DNA of 45,522 nucleotides, from IMG/VR virus record IMGVR_UViG_3300042906_001821, positions 1 to 45,522 of that record. One strand, 5' to 3'. The stretch comes from a virus. A program made the translations under genes and the position numbers. Within the stretch, counting starts at the first letter, position 1. Every line of letters starts with the position of its first letter. Below the pieces are notes generated by a model. That model was not told where the DNA came from. It saw only the letters and a list, made by a program, of their open reading frames with translations, and did no database searches. Below, in pieces: positions 23-32,216 of the stretch.

Positions 23-1492
23 TTAGAAGACGCCGCCGTCGAGGTCGATGTTGTCGATCGTCCCACCGGTGATGGCCACGTTGTTGGCGTTTTGTGTGGC
101 GATGGTGCCGAGGCCCAGGGTGGTGCGCCCTGCGGTGGCGTCGGCGTCGTCGAGGATGCTGCGGCCGAAGGCGGTCAGGCTCGTGGTGGTGAAGGCGTCG
201 GAGCCAGTGGCGTAGATGAGCTGGTTCGCGCTCGTGGTGACGCCGGCCAGGGCGGTCAGCGTGGCGTCGAGAGGCTGGGCATCGACGATGCCGTAGCCAG
301 ACAGGGTTGTGGGGTTGGTGCCGGCGGTGATGCGGCCGTACGCATCGACCGTGGTCGAGATGTAGGTGCCGGCGGTTATGCCGGTTGTAGCCAGGTCAAT
401 CGAGTCGGCGTTGACGACGATGCGGGTCGCGCTCGCAGTGACGACGTCGAGGGTGTTGCCGGTCTTGGTCAGACCTGCGCCGGCGGTGATTTGGCCGGCA
501 CCCGAGAACTGGGTGAAGGCGAGGGCGGTGGTGCCGAGGGTGATTGTGCCGTCGGTGGTCAGGACCCAGCCGGAGTCGGCGTTGGTGGTGCCGGCCTCGA
601 CGAAGGTGAACATGCCTGAGGTCACCTTTGCCGAGGTATCGGCGTCAGTGGTGCGGGTCCAGGCGCCACCGGAGACAACGGTGTAGAGGCCGTTCTCGGA
701 GGCGGTGGTCTGGTTCTTCACCAGGACACGGTCGCCGGCGCTCAGTGCGATGCCGTCGACGGTCTGGGTGCCGTTCAGCGTGATGTTGGCTGTGGTGGCG
801 GCGCGGCAGGAGTCCTTGACGTCGAGGCCCTGCTTGGTGGCGTCGACGTATGCCTTGGTGGCGGCGTCTTGGGCCCCGGTGGGGTCCGCCAGGTTGGTGA
901 TCTTGCGGCTGTTGAGCGTGACATCCGCGGTGGGCGCGGTCAGCTGATCCAGGCGGTTGGTGCGGACCTGGGTGTCGAAGTCGCTGATCTTGGCGGCGGT
1001 CAGCGTTGGGATGTCGCTGGCAGCCAGGGTGGTGCCGGAGGTGGCCAGGCCCTTCGCGTTGAAGGTGATCTTGGTGTAGGTGCCGGCGGTGACACCGCTG
1101 TTCGCCAGGGTCAGAGCAACCGAGGTCGTACCCGAGCCGGTCGCGCCACCGGTGAAGGTGATTGTTTGGTTGCCGGTGAGGTAGTTCTGCGCCTTCACGA
1201 AGGCGGTGCTGGCTGCCTTGGTGCTGCTGTCGGCAGTTAGCTGGGTGGGGACGATTACGTCCCCGGTGAAGGTCTTGTTTCCGCTGACTGTCTGAGCCGT
1301 GCTCAGCGTGAGGTAGGCACCTGCGCCGGCGATTGCAGGGATGGTGGTTGCTGTTCCGCCGGCGCCGCCGGTGCCCTTGCCGTAGTAGAGGACGTCATCG
1401 ACCTCGTTGTAAGCGAGCTCGGCGTTGGCGAGCGAGGTAGGGGCGCCGGGAGAGCCGCTGGCGCGGCGCTTGATCCTCAGAGTGTTGGCCAT
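23..1492 (-). CDS. Tail fibre protein with modular repeats
   Basis: Predicted 489-residue fibre or appendage subunit, low in Cys and rich in Thr, Ala, Gly and Asn. The N-terminus (MANTLRIKRR, then an ELAYNE segment) resembles the short virion-attachment regions of other fibre genes here. Residues 211-401 form a block starting TKAYVDATKQGLDVK, with DRVLVKNQT, SGWVLTTD and FSGAGQITAG motifs, that also occurs in the 789-residue fibre at 7687-10056. The C-terminal part (LDATLTALAGVTTSANQLIYATG, split here as a known fibre-type motif, then GRTTLGLGTIATQNA) is also of a type common in phage fibres. The ATG start is clear. It is the last gene of the fibre cluster in the window. Fibre identity is secure by composition and context; the receptor is unknown. 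Confidence 0.8.
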   Translation of the reverse strand: MANTLRIKRRASGSPGAPTSLANAELAYNEVDDVLYYGKGTGGAGGTATTIPAIAGAGAYLTLSTAQTVSGNKTFTGDVIVPTQLTADSSTKAASTAFVKAQNYLTGNQTITFTGGATGSGTTSVALTLANSGVTAGTYTKITFNAKGLATSGTTLAASDIPTLTAAKISDFDTQVRTNRLDQLTAPTADVTLNSRKITNLADPTGAQDAATKAYVDATKQGLDVKDSCRAATTANITLNGTQTVDGIALSAGDRVLVKNQTTASENGLYTVVSGGAWTRTTDADTSAKVTSGMFTFVEAGTTNADSGWVLTTDGTITLGTTALAFTQFSGAGQITAGAGLTKTGNTLDVVTASATRIVVNADSIDLATTGITAGTYISTTVDAYGRITAGTNPTTLSGYGIVDAQPLDATLTALAGVTTSANQLIYATGSDAFTTTSLTAFGRSILDDADATAGRTTLGLGTIATQNANNVAITGGTIDNIDLDGGVF

Positions 1493-16127: not shown

Positions 16128-16520
16128 TTACAGATTACGAGTGGCTTCGAGACGCACTCGCACGGAACTGCGGCCGTTGAATGCGCTCTCGATGCTGGGG
16201 GCTTCGCTGAAATACCAGCGCAGGCCGGAGCCGGTCTCGCGCAAGAGGACTGCGAGGTCGTTTTGTGCTCCTGCGGTGACTTCTTCGGGAAGGGTGAGGT
16301 CGTCGAAGGTGCCACGGGCCTGTTCGTAGCAGGCCAAGATCGCCGCGGCGTCGCTATCGCTGATGTTGCTGAAGTCGAGATCGAGGCTGGAGCGGCTGCG
16401 CTTGTTGGCGTAGAGCCGGCGGACGGTGACTCCGCTTTGGGCCGTGACCACAGACACCGGGAATTGGCCCGCTTGGTAGGTGCGGTTGCTTGGGCGCAGT
16501 GCGGGGAAAGCTACGGTCAT
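16128..16520 (-). CDS. Minor tail protein, lambda gpM-like
   Basis: A 130-residue protein. The pattern YQAGQFPVSVVTAQSGVTVR..., then LDLDFSNISDSDAAAILACY, FDDLTLPEE, LRWYFSEAPSIE and SVRVRLEATRNL corresponds to small beta-rich tail-tip proteins such as lambda gpM, in which a trimmed grid of residues 'position-distance-width-strength' closes the tube end. The start ATG overlaps the stop of the J-like gene (ATGA). Relationship to gpM is inferred from pattern, size and location. Confidence 0.55.
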   Translation of the reverse strand: MTVAFPALRPSNRTYQAGQFPVSVVTAQSGVTVRRLYANKRSRSSLDLDFSNISDSDAAAILACYEQARGTFDDLTLPEEVTAGAQNDLAVLLRETGSGLRWYFSEAPSIESAFNGRSSVRVRLEATRNL

Positions 16521-19500
16521 TCGCTTATGACCCAGGCCGCGGGGTCGTCCCAGTCCTTAGTCAGGCTAAGAGTGCCGTTTGCTTCGGTCGGGAAGTGGAC
16601 GGCTTCGATGTCGATGGCGCCGTTCTCGGTGAGGCTGATCGATTCCACTTTGTAGGTACGGACCTGGCGGTCGATCCGCTTGACGGCAAAGATGATGTTT
16701 TTGGGGCTAGCAAAGCCGTTGTTGACGATGAGCTGGGTGTCTTGGGGCGGGGTTGAGCCCCGGCTCCAGGCGATCACGTCGTGAGGACCGTCGGCCAGGG
16801 GTGTGGTGCTCACCAGCACGCCATCCGAGGTGACGATGCCGTTGTTGAACTCGTCGTAGTGGGTGACGTCCATCGCCACGCGGATGAAATCACCCGGGGC
16901 CAGGCCGGCGGTGATGCCATCGGGGGTGGTCTGGAATTTGACCGAGTGCGTGATCACCCGGCGCATGCGCAGGACGTACTTGCCGAAGTCGATGGCCTGG
17001 GCCTTGTTGGTGACAGAGTCCGAGAGGTCGTAGGACTCGATGGTGTCGGTAGCGGAGCCTGAGGCTTCGCGGATCAGGAATTCGCGCTCGGTGGGGAAGA
17101 GGCCGGGGTTGGTGGGGTCGTTGCTGGCGCGTTCTTCCCTCCATTTGATGGAGGCTTGGATGGGGAGGCGGTCCGCCTCGTCCATGTACTCCAGGCGGAA
17201 GGTGTTCTCGACGATGTTGCCCGCGGTGAACAGGGCCCTGATTGGGACAGCGCCCTCGGAGGGGAAGCGCAGCGCGGGGCTCAGGGAGAACTTGCCGTCC
17301 TTGATCGTGAATTCGAGGAGGCTGTAGGCGGCGACGTCGGCGGCCCAGACCCTCAGGTTTTGGCGGCCGACCAAGGCGCCGTCGAAGTAGTAGCCGCGCT
17401 GCTCGCACCACTGGGCGGCGTAGCGGAAGGCGTCGGTGTCAATTTGGTCCTCAGTGATCGAGTCGCCTGAGCCGTAGCGGGTGGAGAGGAGCAGGTCCCG
17501 CAGGATGTCGGGGAAGAGGTGGGAGCAGCCGAGGGTGTCGTTCTCGGTGAGGCGGCGGACCTTGAGGCCACCGGTGACGTAGGCAGAGAACTGGCTGAAG
17601 TTCTGCCACTCCACGGAGGAGCGGGCGTTGATGCCGACGATGGCCAGGTTGTCGTAGGTGGGGACGACGGGGTTTTCGGCGATCTCGTTGACGTAGACGA
17701 TCTCGTGCTCGGCGTTGCTGCCTGCGCTGCTGACGACTTCTTCGTAGATGAAGGTCTCGGCGAGTTTGCCCCAGGCATCGACGTAGCTGTTTTCGTCCGC
17801 GAAGGACATACCCATCGAGGTGGTGCGCTCGACGCAGGTGAGCTTGAAGGTTTCGATGGAGCGGATGACTTGTTCGCCGTTGAAGCTGATGTAGACGCCG
17901 TTGCCGTCGTCGACAGTGCGGACAGTGGAGATGCGGCTGTCGAGGACTTCGAGGTTGCCGACAGCGATGTTGTTGCGGATTTCCCAGCCGCTCAGGGGTT
18001 CGAAGCGGAATTCCCAGCGCTTGTTCTGCGGCATTTGGATGCGCAGGTAGTTGAAGACGCTCTGCTGGGTGATGCTGCGGACCCCGAAGCACTGGGGGAG
18101 CATCGTGAATTCGTTGCTGGTGCCGGACTCGCGGTAGTAGAGGCGGAAGAAGCTGTAGCGCTCCTCCGAGGAGGACATCGAGCCGCTGGCGTACTGCTGG
18201 ACCTGGAGGACGTTGCCGCTGCTGATGGTGCTGCCCTGTTTGTTGTAACAGGCTTTGCCGTCGGTCTCGGTGTAGGTGAGGGTGTCGCGGAAGTTGCAGA
18301 GGCCGCTGATGCGGACCCCGAGGCCGGAGCGGATGCCGATCTCGAGGATGCGGCAGGCTCGCATCGTGGAGACGTCACCGAGGGCGACGCGGAAGAGGTG
18401 GCTGCCGTTGGTGGCCGTCTTGCGGGCGACTCCGGATTTGCCGTCGGCGGTGATGTCGGCGGTTGTGGTGAAGTCGGATTGGCCGGCGCGGACCACTGTG
18501 AAGGTGGCTTCGATGCTGGTGCCGCCCCCGAGGGGCAGGAAGTCGGCGTCGCTGTTGAAGACGTCGTCGGAGGGGTTGCGGGCAGTGCAGATCGCGAGGG
18601 CCGATCCGATCCGGTACATGTCACCGACGGTGATGGCGTCGTCCCAGGTGCGCTGGCGGCCGGAAACGGTGGCGGCGACGTCAGCGCATTTCTCGTCGTG
18701 GGTTTCGCCGCCCGCGGATGCGCTGAAGGTTGTGCTGGCGTCCGAGCTCGCGTCGAGACGGTAGGTGCAGGTGGCGCCAATCGTTGAGACGGAACCGGAG
18801 ATCAGGCCACTGCGGCTGGAGAAGAAGGCGTTCTGCTTTTGGCGCAGGGTGTCGGCCGTGATGTCGAGGACGCAGACGACCAGGGCGTCGCCTTGATCGT
18901 TCTTCTTTTTGAGCTGGGCTTGGACTTTGGGGCGGACTTGGGGGTTGATGCGCAGCCCGAGGTTATTGCCGATGGGGCTGTACAGGCCAAACGTCGTCTG
19001 GGTGCTGGGTTTGGTGGCGTAGGAGAAGTCGGATTCGTAGTCGCCGTTGATGGAGCGCAGCTGGTAGACGTCCAGGCCGCCGGAGTTGACAGCGTTGGCG
19101 GGGTCGGCCAGGGCGCTGCGGCCGGCGATGCGGTCGGTGGATTGGATGCGGCCGCCGTTGGGGCGGAAGTAGATCGTGATCCGGGAGCCGGACTGGTTGG
19201 CAGCGTTGTTGGCGAGGTCGTAGCTGCCAATGGAGTTGTTGCCGATGGCGAAGCCGTTGGTGTCGATGCTTTCGACCTCGCCCTCGGCCAGCAGGAAGAT
19301 GGCACGCAGGAGCTGGCTGCCACCGAGGCTCCAGAGCTGGGACCAGAGCAGGGTCAGGTTGACGCGGATGCCGCCGTAGTAGGTGCCATTGATCAGTTGG
19401 CGCCTTGCGTAGACAAGGGGGATCGTGTCGCCGAGCTGGATGATGTCCTGCTGGGCGTCGAAGCCGTAGCGCGGGGCGTAGCGGCGGATGTTGTTGACCG

Positions 19501-19771
19501 TGTCGCCTTGGAGGTTGCGCGAGGCGAGGCGCGGGGGTTCGGCTGGCTTGGGCTTGAAGAAGCTGGCGGCGATGGTCAGGCCGATGGAGATCAGCGTGGC
19601 CACCAGAGCAATGGTGACCAGGGTTTCGAGGCCGGCCTCCACCGCAGGAGCGGGTTGTTCTCTGGCGTTGGCCCGGACCTCCGCCATGAAGTAGCGGTAC
19701 TCGTCCTCGGTGAGGCCGAGCATCTGGGCGAGGTACTTGTCTGAGGGAAGGAGCGGTGGACCTTCAGGCAT
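16517..19771 (-). CDS. Central tail fibre / tip attachment protein (lambda gpJ-like)
   Basis: A 1084-residue protein at the end of the L/K/J-like block. An ATG one base inside the upstream stop (TGATG) is preferred over a GTG one codon earlier. The N-terminal ~70 residues include a hydrophobic helix (TLVTIALVATLISIGLTIAA). The core begins RYGFDAQQDIIQLGDTIPLV and continues through YGGIRVNLTLLWSQLWSLGG, a segment type found in tip-attachment proteins. Later segments (SVEWQNFSQFSAYVTGGLKV, DAFRYAAQWCEQRGYYFDGA, LAPGDFIRVAMDVTHYDEFN) resemble the hub domains of gpJ/Mu gp44-like proteins. It forms the tail-tip hub and contacts the host. Confidence 0.85.
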   Translation of the reverse strand: MPEGPPLLPSDKYLAQMLGLTEDEYRYFMAEVRANAREQPAPAVEAGLETLVTIALVATLISIGLTIAASFFKPKPAEPPRLASRNLQGDTVNNIRRYAPRYGFDAQQDIIQLGDTIPLVYARRQLINGTYYGGIRVNLTLLWSQLWSLGGSQLLRAIFLLAEGEVESIDTNGFAIGNNSIGSYDLANNAANQSGSRITIYFRPNGGRIQSTDRIAGRSALADPANAVNSGGLDVYQLRSINGDYESDFSYATKPSTQTTFGLYSPIGNNLGLRINPQVRPKVQAQLKKKNDQGDALVVCVLDITADTLRQKQNAFFSSRSGLISGSVSTIGATCTYRLDASSDASTTFSASAGGETHDEKCADVAATVSGRQRTWDDAITVGDMYRIGSALAICTARNPSDDVFNSDADFLPLGGGTSIEATFTVVRAGQSDFTTTADITADGKSGVARKTATNGSHLFRVALGDVSTMRACRILEIGIRSGLGVRISGLCNFRDTLTYTETDGKACYNKQGSTISSGNVLQVQQYASGSMSSSEERYSFFRLYYRESGTSNEFTMLPQCFGVRSITQQSVFNYLRIQMPQNKRWEFRFEPLSGWEIRNNIAVGNLEVLDSRISTVRTVDDGNGVYISFNGEQVIRSIETFKLTCVERTTSMGMSFADENSYVDAWGKLAETFIYEEVVSSAGSNAEHEIVYVNEIAENPVVPTYDNLAIVGINARSSVEWQNFSQFSAYVTGGLKVRRLTENDTLGCSHLFPDILRDLLLSTRYGSGDSITEDQIDTDAFRYAAQWCEQRGYYFDGALVGRQNLRVWAADVAAYSLLEFTIKDGKFSLSPALRFPSEGAVPIRALFTAGNIVENTFRLEYMDEADRLPIQASIKWREERASNDPTNPGLFPTEREFLIREASGSATDTIESYDLSDSVTNKAQAIDFGKYVLRMRRVITHSVKFQTTPDGITAGLAPGDFIRVAMDVTHYDEFNNGIVTSDGVLVSTTPLADGPHDVIAWSRGSTPPQDTQLIVNNGFASPKNIIFAVKRIDRQVRTYKVESISLTENGAIDIEAVHFPTEANGTLSLTKDWDDPAAWVISE

Positions 19772-20166
19772 CACTTGAACCTCGCGAAGCTCAGGGGCTT
19801 GAGGGCTGAGAGCGGAACCCAGCTGACCCCGCGCCGGTGGTGGGTGATCAGCAGGCCGTCGTCGACGACCACGCCGACGCCCAGGCCGGCGGGACCGTTT
19901 TTGATCAGGGTGACGGCGTAGGGCTCGGGGCCGGAGAGGGGTTCGGTCAGGTCCGACCAGATCGTTTGCAGTTCGCTCCAGCGGCTGGCGCGGGCGAGTT
20001 CGAACCAGTGCGGGTTGGGTTCGGGGTGAGGGCGGCCGGCCTCGGTGAGGACGGAAAAAGCGACGAGCAGACAGTCCGCTGCTTCTCCTTGGTGGGGGTC
20101 AGCGGCGAGGGCGTGGGGGAGGCCGATGAACCTTCTCCAGGTGGGGATGGTGGCTGTCTGGTTCAT
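19771..20166 (-). CDS. NlpC/P60-like tail protein (lambda gpK-like)
   Basis: A 131-residue protein matching the short NlpC/P60-type tail proteins by position (between L-like and J-like) and by GLPHALAADPHQGEAADCLL, in which Cys32 sits in the usual catalytic-Cys context. Further on, LGVGVVVDDGLLITHHRRGV aligns with the HVGI...DG..IH region, but the usual first catalytic His is replaced by Gly and only the later His pair remains. It may therefore be a structural rather than active hydrolase. Its start overlaps the upstream stop (ATGA). Confidence 0.65.
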   Translation of the reverse strand: MNQTATIPTWRRFIGLPHALAADPHQGEAADCLLVAFSVLTEAGRPHPEPNPHWFELARASRWSELQTIWSDLTEPLSGPEPYAVTLIKNGPAGLGVGVVVDDGLLITHHRRGVSWVPLSALKPLSFARFK

Positions 20167-20636
20167 GAAACGGTGATGTTGCCCGTGCCGGGAACGGCCC
20201 CGACCAGTCGGGTGTGGAGGTAGCGACGGGGGACGGTCCCTTTCACCGCGTCTAAGGGAGAGGTCAGACGAACGTTGATCTTTTGAAGGTCGTGATCAAG
20301 GCGCGTGACTGACCACATTTCTGTCGAAATCAATGCGGTCTCTTGAAATGTATCGCTGTCGAGCAGCACGGTTTTGATCTCCAGCAGCCACTTGGATTCG
20401 ACGGCCTCGGTGAGGAGTTGCATCGAGAGTTGGGTGCAGGGGGTGACGAGGGCGGACTCGGGGCGGTCGCCACCGCGGCTGCTGGTCATGCCGCTCAGGG
20501 CGAAGGGCACGAAGGTGTAGTCGACGTTGTTGTAGGTGCGGGTTTCTTGGATGTGGAAGTTGGCGAAGGCGTAGCTGGTGTAGGCCCCGGCTTTGGTCTT
20601 GAAGCGGATGTAGTTGGCGAGGGCGAGGTTGGCCAT
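20163..20636 (-). CDS. Minor tail protein, lambda gpL-like
   Basis: A 157-residue protein with the organisation of the gpL-type N-terminal domain: TYNNVDYTFVPFALSGMTSS, then RGGDRPESALV, a long strand-rich stretch and VRLTSPLDAVKGTVPRRYLH near the end. Lambda gpL carries an additional Fe-S-binding Cys domain at its C-terminus, which is absent here (only a single Cys is visible). It lies right after the tape measure gene (TGATG overlap) and before the K-like gene, the order seen in lambda-like tails. Confidence 0.65.
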   Translation of the reverse strand: MANLALANYIRFKTKAGAYTSYAFANFHIQETRTYNNVDYTFVPFALSGMTSSRGGDRPESALVTPCTQLSMQLLTEAVESKWLLEIKTVLLDSDTFQETALISTEMWSVTRLDHDLQKINVRLTSPLDAVKGTVPRRYLHTRLVGAVPGTGNITVS

Positions 20637-23600
20637 CAGACTCCGAGGCGGCTACGGACTTTGGTGCTGTTCTGGATGCCGTTGTAGGCAAGGGCGCGGC
20701 CACGCTCGGCGGCTTGGTTGAGGCCGCTGCGGAATTGGTCGGTGGTGACGTATTCGACGTTGTTGATGACGCTGGCCTCGTAGCGGATGTCGATGGGGCT
20801 GGGGTTGGAGACGGCGCGTTGGGCGCGCTCGGTCTCGGTGCGGCGCTCCATGGCCGCCTGGCTGTAGGAGATGGCGGAGCGGTTCTGGGAGAAGGGATCG
20901 GAACCACCGGCTGAGGCACCGCCCATGGCACCGCGGTTGGCGGAGAACAGGTCCTGGTTGGAGGTGATCGTGCCGTTCCCAGCTGGGGAGAAGAGCTCGG
21001 GGCCCTGTTCGCCCACGATGTAGGGGCGGTTGGCGGAGACCGGGCCGCCGGAGGCGCGGAAGAATCCGGTGAAGCCACCGGCGATGCCACCGATGCCACC
21101 GAAGATGCCGGCCAGGCCCATCAGGGTGTTGTAGGTGCCGCCTTTGCCCATCATTCCGACGCCGCCGGCGATGGCACCGGCCCCAGCAGCGATGCCGGCC
21201 AGGCCGCCAATGACGTTGGTGAGGCCCGCCATGCCTTGGCCAGCACCCTTGGCGCTCTCGGCTGCTTTCTTGTTGGCTTCGGCTTGTTGGTTGGTGGCTT
21301 CGGCGGCCTGTTGGGCGGATTGAGCAGCGGCGCCGTTGGCTGCGGCCTCGGGGTTGTCACCGCCTGCTGGGGCGCCGGGTTTGTAGGGCTCGACGGGGAT
21401 GGGTACTGGGCCCGCAGCGCCGGTGCCGCCAAGTGCAGCAGCAACGCTGTTCAGTGCAGCGGTGTTGGCCGAGAGCGCAGCGTTGTTTTCGGCTTGGAGG
21501 GCCTGGGTGGGGTCCTCGACGCCGAAGAAGTCTTTGAAGTTCTGGGCCAGTAGGTCTTCGAGGGGCTTGAACGCGGCGTCGAGGGCCATGTTCAAGAACT
21601 TGTCGGTGATGCCTTCGAGCATCGTGACCATGGCTTCTTGGATGTCGCCGCCGGTCAGGACGGTCTTGGTGAAGCCCTTGAAGCCATCGGTGATCGTGCG
21701 GGCGCTCTCGCGGATCAGGGCCATGGCCTTCTGGAAGTTGGCGACTTCCTTGTCGATGGCGGCGAGCTTTCCGGCGGCAGCGCGGGTGGCTTCAGCGAAT
21801 TTGCGCAGTTCTTCCTGCGCTTGCGCGCTGTTTTTGCCGTACTTCTCCTCGAGCTCGATGCGCTTTTGGGCGATGGCTGCTTCGGCCTCGGCGCGGCGAC
21901 GCAGCATGGGGTCGTCACCAGCGAAGGCTTCGCCCATCGCGGCTGTCCCTTGGACACGGGCGCGTTGGAGGTCGAAGCCCACCTTCTGGGTGGAGGCGCG
22001 GAGATCCTCGACGGCCTGTTGCTGGCGCGTGATCTCCAGGACCTGCTGGCGGAGCTTGCGCTCGGCTTCGAGCTGCTTGAGGTAGTCGGCCTGTTTGGCT
22101 TTGAGGGAGTCCTTGAGTTTGTTGAATTCGGCCTCGGAGAGCTTGCCGGCTTTGCGCTGTGCTTCGGCCTTGGTGAGGATCTCGGCGATTTCGCGCTCTT
22201 GGATCTTGCGCTTGGCGATCTCGTCGACGGAGAGCTTGAGGGCCTCGGGGTCGTAAGCCTGGCCTGAGGTGGCTGCCAGGGCTGCGAGAGCGGTCTGGGC
22301 TTCGACGAGCTGATCCTTGTACTGCTCGACGTTGATCTTGGGGAAGGCCGCCTTGGCGATTTCCTCGAAGGCAGCGGCAGTCTTGGCGTTGGTGAGGGCC
22401 TCTTGGAGTGCGCGGAGGCGCTCCATGGCGGAGGACAGGGAGCGGACCGCGGAGGCGTACTTCTCCACGGCAGGCGCAGCGACGTCCGCGAAGGACGGAG
22501 CTTGGGGTGCTGCCACGGCACTGCCCGGGCCTTTGTAGGCCGAGCCCGGGTCAGCCAGGTGCATGACCTTGTAGCTCTGGCCCTTGGGCCCAGCGATGGT
22601 GGCGTAGTTGCCGCCGAGTCCTTTGGGGTCGCGGGTGAAGTTCTGCAGGGTGTAGCCCTGGGCCAGGTTCAGCGGGGTTCCGGCGGGTCCTGCGAGGTCG
22701 TAGCCCTGATGCGTGCGACCACCGCTGCGTGCGCTGCCGGGTCTATCGGTCAGCGTCAGTTGGCGATTGACGTCAGGGGCAAAGATGGCGCGGGCTTCGG
22801 CCTCGCTGCCAGCGCCGGAGACGTGGAAGTGGGGACCGCTGGAGCTGGTTCCGGTGTTGCCCTGGGTCAGGCCCGTTGCACCACCGACGGGGCTCTGGCC
22901 AGCCAGCTGACGGCGGTAATCCGAGACGTTCTTCTCGTAATCACCGGCGCGCTTGCGGATCTCAGCGATCTTCTTCTCGTTCTCGAGCCGGTAGTCCGAG
23001 ATCTGGCGCTCCAGGTTGGCGGCCTCGATCACCAGCTGTTTCTTGCCGGATTCGATGTCCAGCTCGCCTCGCTCGCGGATGGACAGGTAGTTGTTCAGGG
23101 CGTCGAGCGCTGCAGCGGAGGCGCCTTCTTCGCCCTCGATGAGCTTCTTGTTCGCCTGCTCCATCTGGAAGATGCGGAGCTCACCAGCGGCGCGGAAGAT
23201 GTCGACTTCCTTTTGGGCGCGTTGCTGGCGCAGCTGGAAGAGCTGGTCGTCCTGCTGCTTGCGTAGGTCCCCGATCTCTTTTTCGAGGTTGACCCGTTTC
23301 TCGGCCTCGAGGGTGATCTTTTCGTTGATGCTTCGCTTGTCGCGCTCGCGGTCGACGGCGCTGAGTTGTCCCTTGATCTTCTGCTCTTCGGCCTGGAGGC
23401 CCTGGAGCATTTGGCGAGAGCGCTCCTCGAAGCGCCCGACCTCGGAGCCGGAGAGCGCATCCCAGAACTCGCGCCAGCTCTGGATGCCGGGCTTGAGCTC
23501 GTAGCGGATCTGGTTGATCTTTTCGCGGACTTTTTCGAGGGCGTCGAGGTTCTTGCCGTACTCGGCATCGACGAGGGCTTGCTCGAAGTCGCGGGCTGAT

Positions 23601-25711
23601 TTGGTGGCGCTGTCCGCGGCGTCACCGACGTCTTTGTACTTGGTTTGGAGGCGGCGGAGGGCTTCGGCGGCGCGCTCGGAGCGGGTGGCTTCCTCTTGGG
23701 CGCGCTGGAAGCGGCCGAAGAGGTCCACCAGGACGGTGACGGCGATTTGGATCGCCAGCAGGATCAGGTTGAACTTGACGAAGCTCAGGATTGCGGTGCC
23801 GGCAGCGCGGGCTGCTGCGGTCGTGGCTCCGCCGAAACGGGTCACAGAGACACCGGCCTTATCTGCGGCAGTGCCGGCTGCTGTCAGTGAAGTGGCCAGG
23901 CCCAGCAGCTGCTGTTTCAGGGCTTCAGCAGCGGGGTAGGTGGCGGTGAGCGTGGCCGCGAAGGCAGCGACGACAGCCCCCAGACGGGTGAACGCAGCAC
24001 CGACGGCGATGACCAGGCCACCGAGCAACGTGGCGATCCGGGCGACGAGGCCCTGGACGAAGGTGACAATCGGCGTCCAGGCCGCGATCAACGCGCCGGC
24101 CGCAAAGCCGAGCTTGATCACGGACATCACGCCGATCTTTTCAAGCAGTTGGAACTGCGCAGAGATCTGGCTGAGGTACTGGACGAAGGGAACCTGCAGG
24201 AGCTGGCCGTAGGCGCGGAGGACTTGCCCCAGAACTGCGGAGAACGCGGTGACGGCCTCGCTGAGGTTGGAGAAGATCTGGACGAGGGCTTTGAAGTTCT
24301 CGATTTGGATCGAGAGGAAGCCCTGGGCAAGACGGGCCAGGCCAGCGCCCACCAAACCGATGGACTTGGCGATCTCTTCGAACAGATTGCGCAGCGGCGC
24401 GATGACCGTGTTGGCGCTGGCCTGGAGGGAAGCGAAGGCTTTTTTGACGCTCTCGGTGAGCTGGGCGGCGAATCCTTCGGCACCGGCGCCTATTTGTCCA
24501 AACAGGGCCGAGCCACCGCTGATAGCGCTGAGGTTGGTGCTCAGCAGGGAGCCCAGTCCGCGGCCAAGGCCCTCGCTGATGGCGAAGACCTCTTCGCGGA
24601 TCTTGAAGAGGAAGTCGAAGACTTTGGTCAGGCCCCCGAGCATGGGGTTGAGCAGACCGGCGCCGAACTTCTGGCTGATCAGTTCGCCAAGGTCGCGGAT
24701 GTTGGAGACGACACCGGAGAAGCCTTGAGCGGCGATCCGCTGGCCGGCCACTGAGGCGGCGAGGCGCTCCTCGAGGAATTTGATAACACCGCCGGCCTGG
24801 GTCTTGGCGTTGGCGACGTCCTGGTTGGTGATACCCAGCGCTTTGGCCAGGTAGGAGTCGGTGGTGATGTCACCCCGGAGGATCGAGCCGATCTCTTGGC
24901 GCGCCTGGTACAGGGGGATGCCGAAGGTGCCGAGGGCGGCGGCGAAGTTGATTGCCAGGTCTTCGGCGTCTTTCAGGCCCCCACCGATTTGACCGATCTG
25001 GGAGGCAACGATGCCGAAGACTTCGATCACCTCGTTGGAGGTGACGCCGGCCAGGGCGATGGAGCGCTCTCGGATGCTGTCGATGCGCTTGGCGACCTCG
25101 CCGGTCAGGGCAACGATCTTTTGGTACGGGTCGGTGATCTCCGTGCCGTTGCGGAAGACCTTGTTGGTAGAGGCGAGGGTGGTCTGGGTCTTGAGGATCG
25201 TCTCGCGGAGCTTGATCTCGCGGCCGATGGTCTCGTTGAAGAAGCCACCGAAGGCTGCTTGGACAAGGCCGACCGCTTCCTTGACGGCGAAGAGGGCGAA
25301 GCCGGCCTTGGCCAGGTTGTTGATCAGGCGACCGGCAGCACCGCCGGCGGCCTCGAACGAGTTGGAGAGGATGGCCCCGGCTTTGGCGTTCTCGCGCAGA
25401 GCAGCGGCGGACTCGGGGGCGGAGCGGGCAAGGTTTGCCGTGCCCTTGGCGAGACCCTCGACCTCGCGGACGCGCTCGCCGATTCCGGGGATGTTTTTGC
25501 TGAAGCGGTAGAAGGTCTGGATGTTGTTGCCAGCTTCTTTGACACTCGCGTTGATGTCTTTGAAGCGTTTGTTGATGTCCTGGAAGCTGGAGACATCAAC
25601 CTTGATGTTGCGGTTCTTGGTGGCTTCGGCCGCTGTCTTGTCTACGGCACGCAGTTTGCGCTCCGCGTCCTGCGTTTCCGCTGTGACCCGCAGGCGAAAA
25701 TCTGCCACCAA
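20636..25711 (-). CDS. Tail tape measure protein with embedded M23-like peptidase segment
   Basis: A 1691-residue tape measure protein that sets tail length and is ejected with the DNA. It has N-terminal helices, hydrophobic segments at about 530-670 (VIKLGFAAGALIAAW, LLGGLVIAVGAAF, FVKFNLILLAIQIAVTVLVD), coiled coil at 675-930 and 1090-1400, and a Gly-rich C-terminal hydrophobic part. Residues about 940-1055 are M23-peptidase-like, but permuted: GNTGTSSSGPHFHVSG (H961, H963) comes before THQGYDLAGPAGTPL (H1001, D1005) and YKVMHLAD (H1051). Such domains cut peptidoglycan during entry. Start is TTG at 25711 or GTG at 25708; no strong ribosome site decides this. Confidence 0.92.
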   Translation of the reverse strand: MVADFRLRVTAETQDAERKLRAVDKTAAEATKNRNIKVDVSSFQDINKRFKDINASVKEAGNNIQTFYRFSKNIPGIGERVREVEGLAKGTANLARSAPESAAALRENAKAGAILSNSFEAAGGAAGRLINNLAKAGFALFAVKEAVGLVQAAFGGFFNETIGREIKLRETILKTQTTLASTNKVFRNGTEITDPYQKIVALTGEVAKRIDSIRERSIALAGVTSNEVIEVFGIVASQIGQIGGGLKDAEDLAINFAAALGTFGIPLYQARQEIGSILRGDITTDSYLAKALGITNQDVANAKTQAGGVIKFLEERLAASVAGQRIAAQGFSGVVSNIRDLGELISQKFGAGLLNPMLGGLTKVFDFLFKIREEVFAISEGLGRGLGSLLSTNLSAISGGSALFGQIGAGAEGFAAQLTESVKKAFASLQASANTVIAPLRNLFEEIAKSIGLVGAGLARLAQGFLSIQIENFKALVQIFSNLSEAVTAFSAVLGQVLRAYGQLLQVPFVQYLSQISAQFQLLEKIGVMSVIKLGFAAGALIAAWTPIVTFVQGLVARIATLLGGLVIAVGAAFTRLGAVVAAFAATLTATYPAAEALKQQLLGLATSLTAAGTAADKAGVSVTRFGGATTAAARAAGTAILSFVKFNLILLAIQIAVTVLVDLFGRFQRAQEEATRSERAAEALRRLQTKYKDVGDAADSATKSARDFEQALVDAEYGKNLDALEKVREKINQIRYELKPGIQSWREFWDALSGSEVGRFEERSRQMLQGLQAEEQKIKGQLSAVDRERDKRSINEKITLEAEKRVNLEKEIGDLRKQQDDQLFQLRQQRAQKEVDIFRAAGELRIFQMEQANKKLIEGEEGASAAALDALNNYLSIRERGELDIESGKKQLVIEAANLERQISDYRLENEKKIAEIRKRAGDYEKNVSDYRRQLAGQSPVGGATGLTQGNTGTSSSGPHFHVSGAGSEAEARAIFAPDVNRQLTLTDRPGSARSGGRTHQGYDLAGPAGTPLNLAQGYTLQNFTRDPKGLGGNYATIAGPKGQSYKVMHLADPGSAYKGPGSAVAAPQAPSFADVAAPAVEKYASAVRSLSSAMERLRALQEALTNAKTAAAFEEIAKAAFPKINVEQYKDQLVEAQTALAALAATSGQAYDPEALKLSVDEIAKRKIQEREIAEILTKAEAQRKAGKLSEAEFNKLKDSLKAKQADYLKQLEAERKLRQQVLEITRQQQAVEDLRASTQKVGFDLQRARVQGTAAMGEAFAGDDPMLRRRAEAEAAIAQKRIELEEKYGKNSAQAQEELRKFAEATRAAAGKLAAIDKEVANFQKAMALIRESARTITDGFKGFTKTVLTGGDIQEAMVTMLEGITDKFLNMALDAAFKPLEDLLAQNFKDFFGVEDPTQALQAENNAALSANTAALNSVAAALGGTGAAGPVPIPVEPYKPGAPAGGDNPEAAANGAAAQSAQQAAEATNQQAEANKKAAESAKGAGQGMAGLTNVIGGLAGIAAGAGAIAGGVGMMGKGGTYNTLMGLAGIFGGIGGIAGGFTGFFRASGGPVSANRPYIVGEQGPELFSPAGNGTITSNQDLFSANRGAMGGASAGGSDPFSQNRSAISYSQAAMERRTETERAQRAVSNPSPIDIRYEASVINNVEYVTTDQFRSGLNQAAERGRALAYNGIQNSTKVRSRLGV

Positions 25712-30666: not shown

Positions 30667-31584
30667 TTACGCCTTTTCAAGCACCATGGCGCTCTTGGGG
30701 TAGTAGAGCGCGAGGCCACCGATTCGGGCGTGGGCAGCCACGCTGAACTCGAGGGCTTGGCGGAGGGGAGGCAGGAACTCCAGGGGCTGGGGGATGTGCA
30801 GCTGCAGCTTGTCGGGGCTGCGGTCGTACACCACCACGCGGTCCTTGGAGAGGGCGCCGCTGGACTTGCTGGCTTCCAGCTCGTTGATCGGCTCGATGGA
30901 GCTGATCATCGGGTTGGTGCGCAGGAAGAACTCCATCACCGTGGTGTCCGAGGTGGTCGAACGGGGGGTGGTGGAGATGATGCGGTACACGTTGTAGGGC
31001 ACCAGCATCGTGTTGGGCATCTCCTTCATGTTGGAGTTCTGCACGAGGCGGGTGGGCGCTTCGTTCAGGAGCTCCAGCATTTCGTCGGTGGTCACGCCAG
31101 CCGTGTCGAACCACTTGTTCGGCACGGTCTTGTCGACCTGATCGTTGTTGAAGAAGCCCTTCATGCCGGAGGCGGAGTCGCCGAAGTAGGCGATCTCTTG
31201 CACCTTCTCCTCGTAGGCGCGGCGCACGGCGTTGGCACGGCGCTGCTCCAGGTTCATGCCGGGCACCATGGCGGCGGCACGGGTTTCCTGGATGGTGTAG
31301 GCGAAGGAGCCACCGATGCTGCGAACCGGCAGGGTGACTTCCTTGCGGAGCACGTCAGCGCGGGGCAGATCTTGGGCTTTGTCACCAATCACCTTCATCG
31401 AGCCTTGCTTGTCGAAGACGCGATAGGTGAAGGAGTCAGCACCGTTCCCGACCTCGGAGGAGAGGGGGATCAGCTGGCTGTACTTGATGTCGGCGTACTC
31501 GACCTCGAAGGTGCGAGCAAGGATGGTTTCCAGCTCGCGAGCGAGGAAAACGCCGACCTCGTCGTTACGGATTTCAGTGGTCAT
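30667..31584 (-). CDS. Major capsid protein
   Basis: A 305-residue HK97-fold-type capsid protein, by position after protease and cement protein and by size. Sequence marks include VGVFLARELETILARTFEVE, SFTYRVFDKQGSMKVIG, SIGGSFAYTIQETRAAAMVP, NNDQVDKTVPNKWFDTAG and a final QPLEFLPPLRQALEFSVAAH then RIGGLALYYPKSA. It resembles the DUF2184 capsid family. The start MTTEIRNDEV at 31584 with GGAG 12 bases ahead is preferred over one at 31605 that overlaps the upstream gene. Confidence 0.85.
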   Translation of the reverse strand: MTTEIRNDEVGVFLARELETILARTFEVEYADIKYSQLIPLSSEVGNGADSFTYRVFDKQGSMKVIGDKAQDLPRADVLRKEVTLPVRSIGGSFAYTIQETRAAAMVPGMNLEQRRANAVRRAYEEKVQEIAYFGDSASGMKGFFNNDQVDKTVPNKWFDTAGVTTDEMLELLNEAPTRLVQNSNMKEMPNTMLVPYNVYRIISTTPRSTTSDTTVMEFFLRTNPMISSIEPINELEASKSSGALSKDRVVVYDRSPDKLQLHIPQPLEFLPPLRQALEFSVAAHARIGGLALYYPKSAMVLEKA

Positions 31585-31601
31585 GGCAGGAAGCTCCGTG
31601 A

Positions 31602-32216
31602 TCAAGCGTCGGCGGAGTAGGTCATGCCGGGGATGTCAATCTCCAGCAGGACCAGGCCGGCAGCCGAGGTTTCAGACAGCCAGCGAGCACCTGCGGTGAT
31701 CTCGACGGTCTTGTTGGCAACGGCGGTTTTGGTGAAGCGACCCAGGAAGGCGCCGGCGACGGTGCCGCTGTGGTCAGCTTTGAAGAAACGCACGGCATCA
31801 CCGAGGGCGATGGCGGCGGTGGAGTACACCCACACAACACCTTTGGAGACCACGTTTACGGTCTCTTTGTCGGGGTAGCCGTAGCGGCCGTCGCTGTACA
31901 CCGGGGTGGGTACCGGGGTGTAGCTGGAGCCGAGGCTGGCGCCCTCGAGGACCTGAGAGCTGACGGCCATGCCCTGGATCAGGGTGGTGCCGGTCGCGAT
32001 CTCAACGGCCAGGGGGTCGTTGCTGGTGGGGGTGTTGTCGGTGGCAACCAGAACGCCGTAGGGGAGGGCGGCGCCGGATTGGTTGCGGTAGCTGCGGCAG
32101 ACGTAAGCCTGCAGGTCAGCCAGCATGCCCTCGTGACCCTTGATCAGGGAGAGGGGGTAGCTGCCTTGAGCCCCGGAGGGGTTCGCGACAGTGGTGGCGG
32201 TGAAAGTAACGGCCAT
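31602..32216 (-). CDS. Capsid cement / decoration protein
   Basis: A 204-residue protein between protease and capsid, the usual place for a decoration protein. GAALPYGVLVATDNTPTSND, ATGTTLIQGMAVSSQVLEGA and GVVWVYSTAAIALGDAVRFF correspond to the repeated beta layout of structural cement proteins of the gp24 type (related to DUF2190), where a pattern of 'G..V....G....G.A' recurs. It likely binds the outer capsid to stabilise it. Confidence 0.7.
   Translation of the reverse strand: MAVTFTATTVANPSGAQGSYPLSLIKGHEGMLADLQAYVCRSYRNQSGAALPYGVLVATDNTPTSNDPLAVEIATGTTLIQGMAVSSQVLEGASLGSSYTPVPTPVYSDGRYGYPDKETVNVVSKGVVWVYSTAAIALGDAVRFFKADHSGTVAGAFLGRFTKTAVANKTVEITAGARWLSETSAAGLVLLEIDIPGMTYSADA

Follow-up and report, generated by a model that had tools for sequence, protein, structure and literature searches.

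The tail tape measure protein (TMP) encoded by the viral contig IMGVR_UViG_3300042906_001821 very probably carries, at residues ~945-1056, an M23-type metallopeptidase domain (lysostaphin/LytM-like) in circularly permuted form; this domain occupies an exchangeable slot and is predicted to act as a peptidoglycan hydrolase at infection. The contig was analysed over 45,522 bases (G+C 62.6%), hereafter called the window. In M23 enzymes the zinc ligands are the H and D of an H(x)nD motif and one histidine of HxH, the first HxH histidine is proposed to activate water, and another histidine of the site lies ahead of HxH, as given in the text of the review PMC9662197. In the window domain the order begins with GNTG.S.GPHxH, the final block of native M23, after which a linker of ~36 residues leads to the native first strand. 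The gene and the parts of the domain are as follows.

20636..25711, minus strand: TMP gene, an open frame with a TTG start, 1691 aa.
22820-22876, minus strand: native C-terminal block, here first, TGLTQGNTGTSSSGPHFHV, residues 946-964, which aligns with the final positions of the native M23 profile.
22823-22831, minus strand: HxH motif H961-F-H963, with H961 proposed as catalytic and H963 as metal ligand, roles following the text of PMC9662197.
22712..22819, minus strand: linker, residues 965-1000, connecting the native C-terminus with the native N-terminal strand and predicted to form two short helices and a strand.
22670-22714, minus strand: THQGYDLAGPAGTPL, TMP residues 1000-1014.
22697..22711, minus strand: HxxxD motif HQGYD, with H1001 and D1005 as proposed metal ligands, located by sequence and profile alignment.
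22550..22573, minus strand: YKVMHLAD, residues 1047-1054, in which H1051 takes the third active-site histidine position of M23 in the profile alignment.

Along the protein the motif blocks (residues 946-964, 1000-1014 and 1047-1054) follow the permuted order that the original prediction had described, and its claim that all M23 metal and catalytic positions are present is borne out, given that H961, H963, H1001, D1005 and H1051 can all be read in the TMP. These four histidines are the only ones in the whole 1691-residue protein, and all are motif residues. A second HxH after residue 1051, which had been named beforehand as an argument against permutation, is absent from the whole TMP. The motifs do not follow the linear order of native M23 and instead run HxH, HxxxD, HL, with H1051 after HxH, unlike in M23, where the third active-site histidine precedes it. 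Hence, we file the domain as a permuted relative of M23 and not as a standard member. Five positions, namely the two HxH histidines, H and D in HxxxD and H in HL, do not vary in a 10-row family alignment that includes the window, and they are also among the invariant positions of a 17-row alignment. Within the window family the ratio of non-synonymous to synonymous substitution (dN/dS) is ~0.09-0.27 over nine pairs (dN 0.025-0.18, dS 0.09-1.9); this purifying selection suggests that the domain is in use.

Profile comparison supports a rotation of M23. A window-family profile of 10 rows was placed twice in a row (doubled) for the rotation test and compared with a native-order profile made from eight native-order M23 domains of the phage collection. 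A single alignment starts at the native first strand and continues over the junction into HxH (score 77.8, E 3.5e-12), and the part of it that needs no rotation scores 62.3-62.9. Among 100 column shuffles of the family profile the best score is 19.1, and shuffling the HxH block alone 100 times gives a best score of 69.7 and a mean of 63.0. Domains of two cyanophages, when doubled, align with PF01551 across the junction and pass its gathering cut-off: S-TIM54 at E 9.2e-24 (profile positions 2-90 of 96, score 83.9) and S-TIM66 at E 4e-12 (positions 2-87, score 46.6). A doubled member of the window family itself, L021, matches PF01551 at E 4.3e-4. Without rotation, the family profile also aligns with a profile built from ten further permuted phage domains (E 6.8e-17; domain positions 20-125, TMP 949-1054); this indicates homology and is no independent proof of order, because eight of the ten loci had been picked by a permuted-order pattern.

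AlphaFold models from the 10-sequence and 17-sequence alignments reach predicted local distance difference test (pLDDT) values of 80.9 and 81.9 and predicted template modelling (pTM) scores of 0.76 and 0.78, respectively, and, as we read them, both have their strands in the sequence that rotation of M23 would give. The domain lacks the hairpin that links the YxHL strand to the HxH block in native M23, and it is there that the new ends, and the attachment to the flanks, would lie. Among solved chains the best sequence match to the domain is the internal protein of cyanophage A4 (9k2v), in which phmmer finds residues 641-717 at E 0.0038. VIA-align places the same stretch (9k2v_A, pre-ejectosome, residues 635-725) on positions 34-130 of the second model (TMP 968-1064), which keep the native order and exclude the HxH block. 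The top Foldseek match of the window domain in BFVD is L0CQF1, an internal virion protein that we equated by name and length with gp33 of Synechococcus phage P60; E is 2.5e-3 and prob 1.00, but TMq is just 0.43 and the root-mean-square deviation (rmsd) 11.1.

Several results weigh against a permuted M23 domain. A Pfam search with the whole TMP gives no M23 match at E 1. The 146-residue window domain scores 14.0 bits against PF01551 as is, 15.4 rotated and 18.2 doubled, where the gathering cut-off is 28.7, and Pfam aligns just profile positions 2-54 to it without crossing the junction. Pfam likewise finds no PF01551 match for the doubled domain of L022 or the undoubled one of L010, and six of ten representatives of the slot described below, permuted L105 included, have no Pfam family at E 0.1. 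With neither model does Foldseek reach a PDB match of E 0.001 or below, and no M23 chain is among the matches listed, in searches where sequential aligners put permuted domains at a handicap. The VIA-align match to 9k2v_A is weak (Z 3.3, rmsd 3.4, 81 aligned residues, 25% identity) and unrelated folds tie with it on Z; for the first model VIA-align gives 12 rows, with the LecB lectin on top and Z at most 3.4, and neither M23 nor 9k2v_A is among them. The TMPs of the named phages PaV-LD, CL131, kac68v162 and 2AV2 have 1-3 histidines and lack M23 motifs; their flanks resemble those of the window slot weakly at best.

The permuted order recurs in other phages. In IMG/VR we found 14 window-family loci, ten with the domain as query and four more with the alignment, and a third scan returned the same 14. 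HxH, HxxxD and HL stand in that order and in open frame in 13 of them, several being identical or nearly so and two being equal to the window across the domain. The remaining locus (L020, on the same contig as L032) is frame-shifted right after HxH, either by error or in a broken gene. Cyanophage S-TIM54 surfaced as a non-significant tblastn hit (E 2) and has textbook motifs in permuted order, and S-TIM54, S-TIM66 and S-TIM5 all place the HxH block before HxGxD. A first pattern scan of viral contigs, for GPHxH followed by HxGxD 105-135 bases downstream, gave 14 stretches, of which 11 hold permuted domains in frame (8 of them distinct or almost so, with L037 truncated ahead of the last motif), one is the frame-shifted family copy (L032) and two are wrong-frame chance matches. 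A second codon version of the pattern gave six stretches, five permuted (three of them identical) and one a native-order M23 followed by another domain. As the patterns demanded the order, these 16 of 20 stretches speak for the existence and recurrence of such proteins and not for their frequency.

The proteins that carry the domain are varied. Those of L029, L030, L041, S-TIM54 and S-TIM66 also contain the tail lysozyme PF18013, and in L125, L128 and L129 a baseplate-hub-like protein, which we take to be P2 gpD-like, has a permuted M23-type domain joined to its end. The order is therefore not special to tape measures. The S-TIM54 domain as a query in viral contigs gave five stretches, none confirmed. 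In genome contigs the window-family alignment, a narrow query, gave 328 stretches, none confirmed, and the strict permuted-order pattern gave one, a Streptomyces native-order M23 with an out-of-frame partner; with one codon choice and exact motifs, the genome-contig queries do not establish a confinement of permuted M23 to phages.

A separate observation concerns the region ~150 residues ahead of the permuted domain, which in L012, L023, L028, L029, L035 and L041 resembles a decayed C-terminal half of M23. In S-TIM66 the top M23 stretch in Pfam is 453-487 (profile positions 45-79), also ahead of the permuted domain, and profile comparison of this region in S-TIM54-like proteins gives a weak match (probability 21.9 over 25 columns). 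Possibly, it is a trace of permutation by duplication.

Within related TMPs the domain sits in a slot between conserved flanks, defined on the window protein as follows.

24392..25384, minus strand: TMP residues 110-440, the survey query, which overlaps the region common to Nodularia, Planktothrix and Aphanizomenon phage TMPs.
22910..23224, minus strand: upstream flank, residues 830-934, detected with blastp in 67 of the 80 related TMPs.
22481..22909, minus strand: exchangeable slot, residues 935-1077, filled in the window by the permuted M23-type domain.
22277..22480, minus strand: downstream flank, residues 1078-1145, used for the flank and nucleotide comparison.

For the survey, residues 110-440 were aligned with named relatives and the best 80 of 178 relatives were kept. 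Thirteen of these lack the upstream flank (short contigs) and three are cut, which leaves 64 readable slots with 46 distinct cassettes. The flank and class rules were written after reading the sequences and not set in advance; the classes are motif patterns and hence descriptive, not a test. The original prediction had called for a survey of related tape measures for the same order, and a permuted M23-type domain indeed occupies 33 of the 64 slots, although native-order M23 and other hydrolase types fill the slot as well. The permuted set comprises the HFH type of the window (10/64), the GPHLD type (20/64), L105/L106 (2/64) and L123 with HxD and HxGID (1/64). The other slots hold lysozyme-like domains with ESYGGxY..GKYQI (14/64), native-order M23 (4/64; L094/L095 and L113/L114, 2 distinct), NlpC/P60 (2/64) and a Phage_lysozyme2-like domain (tail lysozyme) alone (1/64), and ten are unassigned (YHQD type 6, YHQD with a Phage_lysozyme2-like domain 2, WVHGHF type 2). 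Pfam recognises PF18013 in L085 (5e-16), NLPC_P60 in L098 (1.7e-5) and native-order PF01551 in L113 (4.1e-11, profile positions 2-96) and L094 (6.2e-8, positions 30-88 only). A PHROGs search returned endolysin families for the slots of L057, L070 and L069 (phrog_34252 for L069) and no match for those of L058 and L074.

The GPHLD type (GPHLD ... AIDIAVP ... LHG; L083 with GPHLH) was assigned to 19 slots, to which we add L066, a cut sequence with the same beginning that the script left unassigned. In this variant (L058, L068, L090, L096, L103, L112, L115 and others, residues ~920-1100) ...H.RRSGGGAIDIAVP replaces HxGxD, which suggests that in the commonest slot occupant the metal site is changed or lost. 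We count it as permuted because it aligns with the profile of permuted phage domains (E 8.8e-10, 74 columns) and with a combined alignment containing the window family (E 4.4e-10, 122 columns); doubled and compared with native M23 it does not cross the junction and aligns over 19 columns only. Two further occupants have scattered histidines and aspartates: WVHGHFQT..SIDLFVP..GHL in L069 and L088, and YHQD..DAIDFY.P..LIHG in L061, L062, L074, L078, L079, L082, L086 and L092, whose representatives, L069 and L074, have no Pfam match. Their M23 identity is not demonstrated, with hhalign probabilities of at most 0.4 (YHQD) and 31.7 (WVHGHF), and these occupants may be further metallopeptidase types. 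Read from the sequence, the slots of L061, L105, L106 and L113 seem to have two domains in tandem, peptidase-like and then lysozyme-like; only the second domain of L113 has a Pfam hint, and that is weak.

At the nucleotide level the exchange has sharp boundaries at both slot edges in the pair L019 (permuted) and L088 (WVHGHF). Identical bases per 30-base block number 24-29 as far as the slot, fall to 8-13 within its first 60 codons and 7-12 towards its end, and return to 21-29 some ten codons ahead of the downstream flank and beyond. L019 and L087 drop from 25-30 to 8-14 of 30 at the upstream edge. The downstream comparison of L049 with L069 is only partly clear, and those of L049 with L053, L058 and L068 were excluded because they are seemingly out of register, with no identity. 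We propose tentatively, at a little under even likelihood, that the domain belongs to a largely phage-borne, anciently permuted M23 branch which spans sipho-, myo- and podophages, includes an HxD variant whose metal site is altered, and travels as a cassette through the TMP hydrolase slot of aquatic siphophages, where it is swapped for unrelated wall-degrading enzymes at sharp boundaries.

The slot contents bear directly on function. Because PF18013, NLPC_P60 and native-order M23 replace the segment in the slot, we predict that it hydrolyses peptidoglycan, and it is most likely an exchangeable hydrolase delivered with the TMP at infection. The TMP, packed in the tail tube, would leave the tail at infection; the domain would then cut peptide cross-links of the host peptidoglycan, and the cut wall would let the TMP, and then the DNA, cross. 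The window domain would thereby do the same job as a native M23 with the chain opened at another place. M23 domains are described as serving phage virions at entry in the text of PMC9662197.

An unlikely alternative, though the best of those considered, is that the permuted M23 fold is catalytically dead and provides the TMP with a binding or spacer module. Non-cleaving LytM factors with an M23 fold are known, EnvC being one according to the text of PMC9662197, and the related GPHLD variant lacks the second HxH histidine in the same slot. Against this, the window family keeps all five expected residues invariant over its 10-row alignment, although the TMP has no other histidine, and recognised hydrolases occupy the slot in several relatives.

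The original prediction was right that M23-type sequence with its final HxH block moved to the front lies inside the TMP, but its view of this as an unusual tape measure design, in which the fold opens during passage through the tail tube, fares poorly. That permutation is an adaptation for opening and threading the domain through the tube is improbable. A tape measure must travel through the tail tube, and nothing beyond the location of the domain in a TMP favours the idea, whereas sister slots hold native-order M23 (four of 64; L094/L095, L113/L114) and other enzyme types, and permuted domains also occur in other virion proteins alongside a tail lysozyme domain. Hence, permutation is found outside TMPs and a TMP can do without it, and, given this use of native order in sister TMPs and of permuted order in other virion proteins, the permutation itself may be neutral.

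It is more improbable still that two unrelated motifs resembling halves of M23 lie side by side by chance. The sub-threshold single-sequence Pfam score, restricted to the N-terminal half of the profile, and the lack of a PDB match with Foldseek at E 0.001 would agree with such a coincidence, but the junction-spanning profile alignment scores above all 100 shuffles, S-TIM54 and S-TIM66 have the same order with high M23 scores, and the family is homologous, unrotated, to a profile that includes both (E 6.8e-17). That the order is an artefact of a mis-assembled or frame-shifted native domain can practically be dismissed, since beside the single frame-shifted contig (L020 = L032) 13 of 14 IMG/VR loci, on contigs of many metagenome numbers, keep an open frame across the domain with its motifs in one order, which the named cyanophages S-TIM54, S-TIM66 and S-TIM5 share.

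The product of 20636..25711 is, by family matches and by position in a tail module, a siphophage TMP. It matches the PHROG tape measure family phrog_10574 (E 1.2e-7) and, with E as low as 1e-44, the TMPs annotated in siphophages of Nodularia, Planktothrix and Aphanizomenon; identity to cyanosiphophage TMPs is ~36-42% in a stretch within residues 70-440. Tail genes flank it on one side and head genes on the other; the neighbourhood matches include minor and major tail proteins, with portal and terminase farther along. Two of the neighbours are placed as follows.

16517-19774: J-like central fibre gene, tail module neighbour of the TMP.
30667-31605: major head protein, neighbour of the tail module of the TMP.

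Elsewhere, separate stretches of a 489-residue protein (window 23-1492, minus strand) match many PHROG families, head decoration and tail fibre alike, and this protein looks mosaic.

M23 is a common cell-wall hydrolase family whose motifs are described in one order only in the text of PMC9662197. If the permuted domain is real, linear profiles would miss or half-annotate a recurrent branch of it, as Pfam does here, and virion hydrolases of aquatic phages may be under-called. If the branch also moves as a cassette, a phage line could change how it cuts the host wall yet keep its tail. The slot is a natural swap series in one scaffold, in which sister TMPs with well-conserved flanks carry different domains; the role of the enzyme in host range or infectible growth stage, and that of topology in tail passage, are hence testable.

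In the literature searched, with most subscription journals and preprints outside its coverage, we found no paper describing an M23 or LytM domain in permuted form. The string 'permut' is absent from the main text of the M23 review PMC9662197, and where permutation is treated in the texts concerned it refers to genomes (PMC5513430, PMC5259590), to NlpC/P60 (PMC6403190) or to another superfamily (PMC12419801). An M23-type hydrolase in a TMP is known, and what is new is its permuted topology in an exchangeable slot.

The domain resembles M23 (PF01551; lysostaphin, LytM) in HxxxD, HxH and the third histidine with neighbouring glycines, but differs in that the HxH block comes first, the native termini are joined and the YxHL-to-HxH hairpin is absent. 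Mycobacteriophage TM4 has a peptidoglycan-hydrolysing segment embedded in its TMP (motif 3), as is predicted here; the TM4 segment differs in motif, is dispensable for viability and aids infection of stationary cells (PMC1796659, whose main text does not contain 'M23'). Thermus phage P23-45 (stolb2), Rhodococcus phage Trina and Streptomyces phage Circinus have M23 within the TMP, as here, but in standard order. The internal protein of cyanophage A4 (9k2v; A-4L AGR48555.1) shares an M23-like domain in a cyanophage virion protein, in native order and in a pre-ejectosome protein rather than a TMP. P60 gp33 (YP_009173811.1) has GSTGPHLDVK first, then FGVDFATPDG and then FVHG, an order like that of the window domain, but HxD replaces HxH, an exact HxGxD is lacking and it is a podophage virion protein, the C-terminus of which (L045:22777-25779) is possibly a podophage version of the permuted M23-type domain with HxD. 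The closest parallels in order are the proteins of S-TIM54 (UYE97289.1), S-TIM66 (UYE96869.1) and S-TIM5 (AEZ65701.1), which have the HxH block first, as in the window; unlike the window TMP they are ~1000 aa long and annotated as virion structural proteins, and those of S-TIM54 and S-TIM66 end in a C-terminal PF18013 tail lysozyme.

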